Assembly: GCA_028284195.1 (NCBI GenBank)
Contig: JANQSE010000002.1
Coordinates: 620,001-684,000 of the forward strand
Direction of reading: 5' to 3'
Length of the DNA stretch: 64,000 nucleotides
Origin: Balneola sp.
GTDB lineage: Bacteria > Bacteroidota > Rhodothermia > Balneolales > Balneolaceae
A model generated the notes under the pieces. The model did not search any database and had not been told where the DNA came from. It worked only from the letters and a program-made list of their open reading frames with translations. A program made the translations under genes and the position numbers. Numbering within the stretch: position 1 is the stretch's first letter; every line of letters starts with the position of its first letter. Below are positions 33,020-36,533 of this stretch, in pieces.

Positions 33020-34249
33020 ATGAATTTTCAAGTAAAAAAATATTTTGGCCCAAGTACCTTAGTTACAGCAGCATTTATTGGCCCGGGAACTGTAACTATT
33101 TGTACATTGGCCGGCGTAACTTCGGGCTATACGCTACTATGGGCACTATTGTTTTCGGTGATAGCCACGATCGTTCTCCAGGAAATGACGGCACGGCTGG
33201 GACTTATTACACAAAAAGGATTTGGTGAAGCAATCCGAAATGAATTGGATCATCCAATCGCTAAAATAGCAGGAATATTTTTAGTGCTCGGTGCCATAGT
33301 TATTGGAAACGCTGCGTATGAAGGTGGTAATATCTCAGGGGCAGTTCTCGGATGGACTGCAGTTCTTCCAGCTGTGGATGTTACAATTCTTGGCATCAAT
33401 TTCAGAATGGTTCCGTTAGTATTAGGCGCAGTTGCTTTTTTGTTATTGTATTCAGGAAACTTTAAACGTATCCAAAACTTTCTGGTTGGCTTGGTAGTGA
33501 TTATGAGCATTATCTTTTTGGCTACTGCTGTTATGATTGCTCCCTGTTTTTCAGAAATAATAAAAGGCTTGTTTGTTCCGGCTGCATCTGCAGATGAAAT
33601 ACTTATGGTTGTTGCATTGATAGGAACAACTGTAGTGCCGTATAACCTGTTTCTGCATGCTTCTGCGGTGCAGCAGAAGTATAGTGGTGCCTCACAACTT
33701 TCCGATCTCAGAAAAGAGAATTTCGTAGCCATTGTGCTCGGCGGTTTAATTTCAATGTGTATTGTTGTAACCAGTGCAGCGTCAGGATCGGGAGCAGAAG
33801 TTAAAAATGCTGCTGATATGGCAATTCAACTGGAACCTCTTTTGGGGCGTTGGGCTAAAGATTTTCTTGGAATTGGCTTGATTGCAGCAGGGATATCCTC
33901 GGCAATAACAGCACCGCTGGCAGCAGCTTATGCAGCAAATGGCATTTTAGGGTGGAGTGCCGGAATGAAAGACGCAAAGTTCAAGGCTGTATGGATGGCT
34001 ATTCTTGGGATAGGGGTGTTATTCTCGATGCTGAGCTTTAGCCCGGTTGCTATTATCCAGTTTGCACAAATTGCGAACGGAATTTTACTACCGTTGGTAG
34101 CTGTTTTTTTAATGTACATCGTAAACAAGAAGGAATTACTCGGCGATTATGTAAACTCAACTATGCAAAATATGTTAGGTGCAATTGTAATATTGATTGC
34201 CATTTTGGTAGGCCTTAGAAGCCTTAACAGTGTATTCCAATTTATATGA
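33020..34249 (+). CDS. NRAMP-fold transporter lacking the canonical metal ligands, pxp-linked
   Basis: 409 residues with eleven or so helices. Family match is clear around TM1 (AAFIGPGTVTICTLAG, then GYTLLWALL) and TM6 (GTTVVPYNLFLHAS). The signature DPGN of TM1 is here GPGT, so Asp is Gly21 and Asn is Thr24. The MPHN of TM6 is VPYN, so Met is Val206 and His is Tyr208. These positions coordinate Mn/Fe in true NRAMPs. It is coupled (ATGA) to pxpA, in an operon for 5-oxoproline use, as is ycsG in Bacillus. It may therefore carry a different substrate; this is inference. Confidence 0.85.
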   Translation: MNFQVKKYFGPSTLVTAAFIGPGTVTICTLAGVTSGYTLLWALLFSVIATIVLQEMTARLGLITQKGFGEAIRNELDHPIAKIAGIFLVLGAIVIGNAAYEGGNISGAVLGWTAVLPAVDVTILGINFRMVPLVLGAVAFLLLYSGNFKRIQNFLVGLVVIMSIIFLATAVMIAPCFSEIIKGLFVPAASADEILMVVALIGTTVVPYNLFLHASAVQQKYSGASQLSDLRKENFVAIVLGGLISMCIVVTSAASGSGAEVKNAADMAIQLEPLLGRWAKDFLGIGLIAAGISSAITAPLAAAYAANGILGWSAGMKDAKFKAVWMAILGIGVLFSMLSFSPVAIIQFAQIANGILLPLVAVFLMYIVNKKELLGDYVNSTMQNMLGAIVILIAILVGLRSLNSVFQFI

Positions 34250-35004
34250 AAAAGAAGATTGATTTAAATTGTGATTTGGGTGAATGGCGTACCGAGCATG
34301 GCCCGGATCTGGATAGGGCTATTATGTCGTATATCTCATCGTGTAATATTGCCTGCGGCGGGCATATCGGTGATGAGATAAGTATGCGCTGGACAGTTAT
34401 TCTGGCTAAAAAAAACAGAGTGAAAGTCGGGGCTCATCCGGGTTATCCTGATCGGGCTGGTTTTGGAAGGCGGCAGTTGGAGATGGATACGGAAAAGCTC
34501 AAGAACAGCATCAAAAATCAGATCCTGAGTTTAAAAGAAGTAGCTGAAGCAGAAGGGGTGCACCTGCATCATATAAAACCTCATGGAGCTTTGTACAATG
34601 CTGCTTCTAAATATCGGGACATCGCTAAATCAGTGGCAGAAGCGATCTATGAATTAGGTTTGGATACTTTGGTGTATGGCCAGGCAGATTCCGAATTTGA
34701 ATTGGTTACCAGGAAGTACGGGCTAAAGTTTTGTGCAGAAGCTTTTGCAGACCGCGTGTATGAAGATGACTTGAAACTAAGATCCAGAGACCTGAAGGGC
34801 TCAGTGCTCCATCAGAAAGAAGAGGTACTTTCTCAGATATTTGAGATGGTGATTGAAGGTAAAGTAACCACATATTCAGGCAAAAAGCTTCCCATCAGGG
34901 CTGAGACAATTTGCCTGCACAGCGATACAAAAGGTTCTGAGGGGCTGGCCAGAAATATTCATCAGTTTTTGAAAAAAAATGGAGTTACCATCACTTCAGT
35001 TTAA
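34246..35004 (+). CDS. pxpA: 5-oxoprolinase subunit A (LamB/YcsF family)
   Basis: 252 residues, family length. Motifs: KIDLNCDLGEW, SYISSCNIACGGHIGDEISM, VKVGAHPGYPDRAGFGRR and HHIKPHGALYN. PxpA works with PxpB and PxpC to cleave 5-oxoproline to glutamate with ATP. The ATG overlaps the transporter stop by four bases and its end overlaps pxpB by 26, implying coupled translation and equal stoichiometry. One variation: the usual ACGFHAGD is ACGGHIGD. Confidence 0.93.
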   Translation: MKKKIDLNCDLGEWRTEHGPDLDRAIMSYISSCNIACGGHIGDEISMRWTVILAKKNRVKVGAHPGYPDRAGFGRRQLEMDTEKLKNSIKNQILSLKEVAEAEGVHLHHIKPHGALYNAASKYRDIAKSVAEAIYELGLDTLVYGQADSEFELVTRKYGLKFCAEAFADRVYEDDLKLRSRDLKGSVLHQKEEVLSQIFEMVIEGKVTTYSGKKLPIRAETICLHSDTKGSEGLARNIHQFLKKNGVTITSV

Positions 35005-35665
35005 TGGTAATTCCTGGTCGGTATTCCGGCTGGGAGAAAAGGCCTGGCTGCTTACACCTCAGGTTGATTCGGGAAGCCTCGCTGTAATTCATCAGGCAGC
35101 AAACAGTTTAGAAAAGGCAAGCATTGCTTCACTGATTGATATTGTTCCAGCATATAATTCCCTCACGCTAATTTTTAGCCGCAAGAATATTGACTTGACT
35201 AAGGAGCTTTCTCATGTAAACTTTGCTTCAGAAATTCAGGATGTTCAAACTCATGTTGTGCAGGTTTGCTATGATCTGGGATTGGATTGGAAAGAGCTTG
35301 AAGCTCATTCCGGGATGTCGAAGGAAGAGATCATCACTATTCATAGTTCGGTTGATTATACTATCGCAATGATGGGCTTTCTTCCTGGATTTGTGTTTTT
35401 AGAAGGATTAGATGAGCGACTCTTTATTCCAAGAAAGGATAATCCACGGACTAAAATTCCGGCAAGCTCTGTTGGTATCGGTGGAAGTCAAACAGGCATT
35501 TACTCACTAGAAAGCCCTGGCGGCTGGCAGGTTATTGGTCGAACCCCTCAATCCTTTTTTGATGTACGAAATGAGCCGCCAGGTAAACTAAAAGCGGGAG
35601 ATAAAGTAGTTTTTGAATCTATTTCAAAAAATGAGTTCATAAAACTGAGTGGTCAAAATGGGTAA
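34979..35665 (+). CDS. pxpB: 5-oxoprolinase subunit B (KipI/DUF213 family)
   Basis: 228 residues. Carries the KipI/PxpB marks: VQVCYDLGLDWKELEAHSGM, HSSVDYTIAMMGFLPGFVFL split around residue 130, RKDNPRTKIPASSVGIGGSQ and YSLESPGGWQVIGRTP. In Bacillus, KipI was first studied as a kinase inhibitor, but the family is the B subunit of prokaryotic 5-oxoprolinase. It overlaps both neighbours. Confidence 0.92.
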   Translation: MELPSLQFNGNSWSVFRLGEKAWLLTPQVDSGSLAVIHQAANSLEKASIASLIDIVPAYNSLTLIFSRKNIDLTKELSHVNFASEIQDVQTHVVQVCYDLGLDWKELEAHSGMSKEEIITIHSSVDYTIAMMGFLPGFVFLEGLDERLFIPRKDNPRTKIPASSVGIGGSQTGIYSLESPGGWQVIGRTPQSFFDVRNEPPGKLKAGDKVVFESISKNEFIKLSGQNG

Positions 35666-36533
35666 ACTCACGGTGTTAAATGGCGGGCTTTTCACAACCA
35701 TTCAGGATGGGGGAAGAGAAGGTTACAGAAAGTTTGGGGTTCCGGTTTCGGGGATAATGGATGAACAAGCATACAAACTTGCTAATGAAATGGTGGGAAA
35801 TGCAACAAATGAACCGGTTTTGGAATGTACACTGAAAGGAGGAGAGTATCGCTTCGATGAAGATGCTATTGCAGTACTTACAGGAGCACCAATGAATCCA
35901 CAACTAAACAATGAACCTGTGAATTTGAATGCCTTTTTTAAGGTGAACCGGGGAGATATTTTGAAACTTGGTTTTGCAGAAAAAGGTTGCCGCACGTATG
36001 TAGCAATTCGCGGCCGCTGGAAAGTTCCAAAAGTTATGGAAAGCTGCTCGGCTTGCACGATGGGTAATTTTGGCGGCTTATTTGGGCGGGCTTTAGAAAA
36101 GGGAGATACCATAAGCTGGGAAAAGCTTGAAGGAGATTTCGATACTCGAGAAATTCTAAGCAATCAGATGCCTTATTACAGCTCAAAGATAACTGTTAAT
36201 TTTATTTCCGGGCCCGAATGGAATTGGTTGGATGAAAAAACTCAAAATTTTTTTTTAAATACTTCATTTAAAGTACACACGCAAAGCAACCGGATGGGAA
36301 TAAGGTTACGAAGTGATGAATCAATCAAAGTACCGGATAAACAAATAACATCATCCGGAGTTATTCCGGGAATCATCCAATTACCACCAAGCGGGCAGCC
36401 CATTATCCTGATGAAAGACGGACAAACGATAGGGGGTTATCTAAGGATCGGCAAAGTATTGGATATACATTTGAACCGATTAGCCCAGATTCCACCAAAT
36501 GGATATGTACGTTTTAAGAAAACGTTCTTTTGA
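35658..36533 (+). CDS. pxpC: 5-oxoprolinase subunit C (KipA/DUF183 family)
   Basis: 291 residues from the ATG at 35658, which overlaps the pxpB stop by 8 bases; a GTG at 35649 is an alternative. Marks: GGLFTTIQDGGREGYRKFGVP, shortened; VLTGAPMNPQLNNEPV; RTYVAIRGRWKVPKVMES; SNRMGIRLRSDE; and a C-terminal GQPIILMKDGQTIGGY. Biotin-dependent carboxyltransferase-like fold (AHS2) shared with urea amidolyase. It closes the operon, and a hairpin with a T run lies ~115 bases downstream. Confidence 0.93.
   Translation: MGKLTVLNGGLFTTIQDGGREGYRKFGVPVSGIMDEQAYKLANEMVGNATNEPVLECTLKGGEYRFDEDAIAVLTGAPMNPQLNNEPVNLNAFFKVNRGDILKLGFAEKGCRTYVAIRGRWKVPKVMESCSACTMGNFGGLFGRALEKGDTISWEKLEGDFDTREILSNQMPYYSSKITVNFISGPEWNWLDEKTQNFFLNTSFKVHTQSNRMGIRLRSDESIKVPDKQITSSGVIPGIIQLPPSGQPIILMKDGQTIGGYLRIGKVLDIHLNRLAQIPPNGYVRFKKTFF

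Follow-up and report, generated by a model that had tools for sequence, protein, structure and literature searches.

An NRAMP-related transporter clade without canonical metal ligands is paired with either of two unrelated oxoprolinase-type enzymes and may carry 5-oxoproline

Published work places NRAMP-related transporters beside the genes of 5-oxoproline (pyroglutamate) metabolism. Deletion of pxpT abolishes the growth of C. glutamicum on 5-oxoproline, and 5-oxoproline uptake was proposed for the YcsG/PxpT clade from that organism in 2026 (PMC13274462); according to the same paper, B. subtilis ycsG is also required for 5-oxoproline use, and 50% identity is quoted there between C. glutamicum PxpT and YcsG. 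YcsG has, however, also been renamed MntG and reported as a Mn2+ importer that raises cellular Mn, in a paper that cautions about polarity in the previous work on 5-oxoproline (PMC10448178). MumT of A. baumannii, found with a 'urea' operon, was reported as a Mn importer that supports Mn accumulation (PMC5050338). Among the metal carriers themselves, the TM3 Glu of BfraNramp (E116) touches Mn2+ (PMC12873925), and the altered sites of NRMTs can carry Mg2+ (named in PMC12873925). Our search of the literature found no functional study of the clade described here, which we call the VPYN clade.

The window, i.e., the whole stretch of DNA that we analyzed, comprises 64,000 nucleotides of a Balneola sp. 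assembly (GCA_028284195.1, contig JANQSE010000002.1, positions 620,001 to 684,000). Four genes occupy positions 33020-36533 of it:

33020..34249, + strand: NRAMP-related transporter of the VPYN clade, PxpT-like, 409 aa, LeuT fold
34246..35004, + strand: pxpA (LamB/YcsF), 5-oxoprolinase subunit A
34979..35665, + strand: pxpB (carboxyltransferase C/D domain), 5-oxoprolinase subunit B
35658..36533, + strand: pxpC (carboxyltransferase A/B domain), 5-oxoprolinase subunit C, ATG start at 35658

The coordinates bear out the end-to-start overlaps of the original prediction, which measure 4 bases (transporter/pxpA), 26 bases (pxpA/pxpB), and 8 bases (pxpB/pxpC), the last with the pxpC start taken as the ATG at 35658 (the list of open reading frames has a GTG at 35649). 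The products match their Pfam families with 262 bits (Nramp, PF01566), 279 bits (LamB_YcsF), 192 bits (CT_C_D), and 284 bits (CT_A_B). NCBIfam names all three enzymes as 5-oxoprolinase subunits; PxpA passes its subfamily cut-off and PxpB its equivalog cut-off, and PxpC is named at the family level only (TIGR00724), under its own equivalog cut-off. Encoded together, PxpA, PxpB, and PxpC are, as judged by sequence, a PxpABC 5-oxoprolinase. The transporter scores 142 bits against an NCBI MntH cut-off of 430 and passes the looser Nramp_1 model. A promoter and terminator scan returned nothing better than shuffles. We found no DPGN-type NRAMP in the window's assembly; the second Nramp-family match of that genome (L002:1390-2664) has GVSH/IPWH at the ligand places.

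An alignment of the transporter with E. coli MntH, DraNramp, BfraNramp, EleNRMT, and 181 distinct sequences located the following features of its central site:

33080..33091, + strand: TM1 GPGT (residues 21-24; AAFIGPGTV), replacing DPGN
33317..33331, + strand: TM3 Y-E-G-G-N (residues 100-104)
33635..33646, + strand: TM6 VPYN (residues 206-209; GTTVVPYNL), replacing MPHN
34076..34078, + strand: TM10 Asn353, Leu in metal NRAMPs

The original prediction held that the Asp, Asn, and Met metal ligands are replaced (GPGT/VPYN versus DPGN/MPHN), and the alignment confirms it: G21 aligns with D34 of E. coli MntH (D56 of DraNramp), T24 with N37 (N59), and V206 with M209 (M230). Two further losses had been missed, for N104 stands at the place of the TM3 Glu (E112 in E. 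coli, E134 in DraNramp) and Y208 at that of the TM6 His (H211 and H232, respectively). The window transporter thus has neither the TM1 DPGN and TM6 MPH(N) of canonical NRAMPs nor the DAGG-type TM1 and APW-type TM6 site of NRMTs.

Residues G21, T24, N104, T203, V206, Y208, and N353 are invariant in all 118 distinct members of the VPYN clade, as are GPGT and the TM6 Tyr-Asn pair, and at each of these seven positions the clade differs from a near-invariant canonical NRAMP residue. Asn353 is invariant in the MumT clade as well. At E101, which aligns with D131 of DraNramp, 113 of the 118 have Glu and the other 5 have Gln. Conservation at ≥97% extends to a single charged residue (Arg59) in the VPYN clade, versus eight each in canonical NRAMPs and NRMTs. 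Because loci from our genome scan had been seeded by TM1/TM6 motif patterns, the motif counts were repeated without them, and all 43 motif-independent members carry GPGT, the TM6 YN, and N104. Since the site residues are invariant in 118/118, random decay or chance loss in an NRAMP can be ruled out. In the comparison that the original prediction had proposed, of structurally known NRAMPs with pxp-linked homologues, the change is conserved, and none of the pxp- or hyu-linked homologues carries DPGN/MPHN.

The predicted structure is that of an NRAMP. In the AlphaFold2 model (pLDDT 84), TM1 and TM6 are interrupted in a LeuT-like manner, the former at residues 20-21 and the latter at residue 206. 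A structure search ranked NRAMPs first (Z about 35-49), with carriers of amino acids and further proteins of the LeuT fold next (Z about 26-30). The top Z of 49 was to DraNramp (6c3i), and the best Foldseek match was an NRMT of the EleNRMT type. Fold and PF01566 are common to canonical NRAMP/MntH (Slc11) proteins and the window transporter, whereas the metal ligands, the TM3 Glu, and the TM6 His are all replaced in the latter, and NRAMP/MntH proteins show no oxoprolinase linkage. NRMTs such as EleNRMT are likewise NRAMP-related and share the fold, but they form a distinct clade, carry DAGG/APWM, and keep Asp and Glu. The amino-acid carriers AdiC, ApcT, and AgcS of the APC group have the LeuT fold and a Gly-rich unwound TM1 in common with the transporter, yet they are 11-13% identical to it and without detectable sequence relation.

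An unrooted IQ-TREE phylogeny of 70 sequences, in which 33 members represent the VPYN clade, recovered four monophyletic groups, all with support of 100: the VPYN clade, the MumT-type clade, canonical NRAMPs, and NRMTs. Canonical NRAMPs and NRMTs join with support of 100, and the VPYN clade joins them with support of 80, away from the MumT-type and other Nramp-related proteins. The window transporter accordingly groups with neither MntH nor EleNRMT, nor with the MumT-type (GPGF/GGYI) proteins, to whose members it is 23-25% identical. Outside the four main clades lies a Pseudomonadota NRAMP-related protein with GPGS/PPNT/FQAGN (L178:1477-2817). The Slc11 'orphan' outgroup of Cellier (PMC10606218) has, like the VPYN clade, a Val and a Tyr after a Thr in TM6 and a Tyr and an Asn four apart in TM3; in the accessible text of that paper it is described as sequence only, with no substrate proposed. 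From these stated residues (TM6 T..V.Y, TM3 Y...N), the outgroup is plausibly the VPYN clade itself. A search of viral contigs found no relatives.

GPGF/GGYI is carried by A. baumannii MumT (read from a record filed as plasmid), by plasmid proteins of Klebsiella, L. plantarum, and B. badius, and by others. MumT and the YcsG-like protein of B. badius both lack the canonical metal ligands. We assigned the motif of YcsG from this B. badius relative, the gene set of which (pxpA, transporter, a D-glutamate cyclase-type 'putative hydro-lyase', pxpB, pxpC, and an IclR regulator) is similar to the B. subtilis operon; we take the IclR regulator and the hydro-lyase to correspond to KipR and YcsI in that operon. 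From the quoted 50% identity and the B. badius synteny, C. glutamicum PxpT and YcsG probably belong with MumT. Like the window transporter, members of the YcsG/PxpT/MumT clade are NRAMP-related, adjoin pxpA/B/C, and have a ligand-less center with a TM1 Gly, a TM3 Gly-Asn, a TM6 Tyr, and a TM10 Asn; unlike it, they carry GPGF/GGYI, form a separate monophyletic clade, and usually sit in operons that include a D-glutamate cyclase gene and in many cases a biotin carboxylase, both of which are absent from the window operon. The analogy to Bacillus ycsG/ycsF in the original prediction consequently stands as a gene pairing beside pxp and fails as orthology: since the YcsG model 9a52 and the window protein share 21% identity by structural alignment, versus 50% between PxpT and YcsG, and the clades are separate, ycsG is a parallel pairing.

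The A. baumannii mum operon (L166:5707-11911) encodes the GPGF/GGYI transporter, PxpA, a D-glutamate cyclase family protein, a fused PxpB-PxpC, and a biotin carboxylase. Though published as a manganese and urea operon, it looks, from its gene content, like an oxoproline operon, because the second and third genes encode PxpA and a member of the D-glutamate cyclase family, respectively. MumT-type operons also occur on Klebsiella and Lactiplantibacillus plasmids (L168:4745-10915 and L170), and 93 Klebsiella records match MumT.

The VPYN transporter has either of two unrelated oxoprolinase-type enzymes as its partner and has exchanged one for the other, a pattern that is new. Within flanks of 1.5 to 8 kb, pxpA adjoins the transporter gene in 94 and hyuA/hyuB in 13 of the 118 members, versus pxp or hyu genes beside 0/33 canonical NRAMPs and 0/10 NRMTs. 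The remaining 11 have no such enzyme gene in the stretch read (one ends at a contig end), and most of their genomes encode an enzyme elsewhere. By Pfam family, HyuA/HyuB (Hydantoinase A/B families) have no relation to PxpABC; the nearest proteins to these partners are N-methylhydantoinase and a hydantoinase/5-oxoprolinase, and hydantoins and caprolactam are also among the substrates of their relatives. Transporters with hyu partners are found in haloarchaea, where one locus adds an Asp/Glu racemase-family gene, in Bacteroidota (L077, L081), in Pseudomonadota (L175/L209), and in relatives from the class and the family of the window organism (L124-L130). By parsimony the partner changed at least three times on the tree, and two of these changes fall inside groups with support of 98 and 100 (L077/L081 within pxp-linked Bacteroidales; L175 versus L176). 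Across 148 genomes of the phylum, PxpA or HyuB accompanies 35/35 carriers (26 and 9, respectively) versus 21/113 noncarriers (Fisher P = 1e-19), or 19/19 versus 15/63 by genus (P = 9e-10), P values that ignore phylogeny and are inflated by relatedness. None of these genomes holds both enzyme types. Our homologue sampling is heavy on Bacteroidota, and the genome scan gave Bacteroidota and one metagenome-assembled genome (MAG) labelled Pseudomonadales. The transporter of that MAG (L040:3739-5037) is 59% identical, on a contig without pxp genes, and reflects either transfer or mis-binning. A DUF2891 gene lies immediately upstream of the transporter at 54 loci, mostly in Flavobacteriia (L120:6415-7572, L019, L042, L045, L176, and about 50 more); its product is lipoprotein-like in L120, and it is absent from the window genome. 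In L120, where the transporter is not linked to pxpABC, a gamma-glutamyltranspeptidase gene lies directly downstream (L120:8896-10629).

We propose, with a probability of roughly three in four, that the operon is a unit for the uptake and use of 5-oxoproline and that its transporter carries 5-oxoproline or a close cyclic amide, a reading of substrate, direction, and coupling drawn from gene context. The NRAMP-fold protein would import the compound, and PxpABC would open the lactam with ATP to yield glutamate. The unwound TM1/TM6 center would form a neutral pocket of Gly and Thr from TM1, Asn from TM3, Val and Tyr from TM6, and Asn from TM10, in which the TM1 backbone could bind a carboxylate, much as it does in LeuT-fold carriers of amino acids; a candidate site for protons is E101, the counterpart of D131 in DraNramp. 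The idea, first suggested for this locus, of a substrate other than a metal, perhaps 5-oxoproline, gains support from clade-wide conservation, linkage, and the PxpABC/HyuA-HyuB exchange, from which we infer transport itself.

The original prediction also offered an ion needed by the enzyme, and import of a metal ion (Mn2+, Mg2+, or other) through a non-canonical site would suit the NRAMP fold, linked enzymes that may use divalent metals, and the Mg2+ carried by NRMT sites (PMC12873925). In the other clade without ligands, which also adjoins pxp genes, YcsG and MumT were reported to raise the Mn content of cells (PMC10448178, PMC5050338); the lactam reading does not account for these phenotypes, and they count against a 5-oxoproline carrier. 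We nevertheless regard metal import as unlikely. The site has lost every acidic ligand, with Gly, Asn, and Tyr in the places that D34, E112, and H211 occupy in E. coli MntH, whereas NRMTs keep Asp and Glu. The transporter, moreover, follows two unrelated enzymes, which fit a shared substrate better than a metal cofactor, and C. glutamicum and B. subtilis mutants of the other clade fail on 5-oxoproline (PMC13274462).

Another cyclic amide or amino-acid derivative (a hydantoin, an N-carbamoyl or D-form, or a pyroglutamyl peptide) might instead be the main substrate, with 5-oxoproline secondary. The affinity of the HyuA/HyuB partners to hydantoin enzymes and the racemase-family gene of a haloarchaeal locus lend themselves to this, but most partners are PxpABC, the known substrate of which is 5-oxoproline, and we consider it quite improbable. 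That the pairing reflects descent or co-transfer without a functional tie is least probable of all, and very much so: gene order is indeed kept throughout the window's genus, yet the same pairing turns up in Bacteroidota, Pseudomonadota, and haloarchaea even though the enzymes, which are not homologous, have been exchanged, and co-occurrence is 35/35 even where the genes are unlinked.

The reading as a carrier of 5-oxoproline or a close cyclic amide matters for a family whose VPYN members public annotation labels as divalent metal transporters, and the two published Mn-importer claims (MntG/YcsG and MumT) concern a clade that lacks the canonical ligands and lies beside oxoprolinase genes. Partner exchange offers a separate line of evidence that what such transporters track is the lactam rather than the cofactor of one enzyme. 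The VPYN clade, with T24, N104, Y208, and N353 as the residues of note, also bears on the origin of the NRAMP metal site. Tentatively, and with somewhat less than even confidence, we suggest that the closest relatives of the metal NRAMP/NRMT proteins may be carriers of an organic lactam. Should the tree prove to be rooted among the other Nramp-related proteins, the NRAMP metal site would have arisen from a neutral, amino-acid-like one, and two deep NRAMP-related clades with shared neutral residues at that site would both hold 5-oxoproline carriers.
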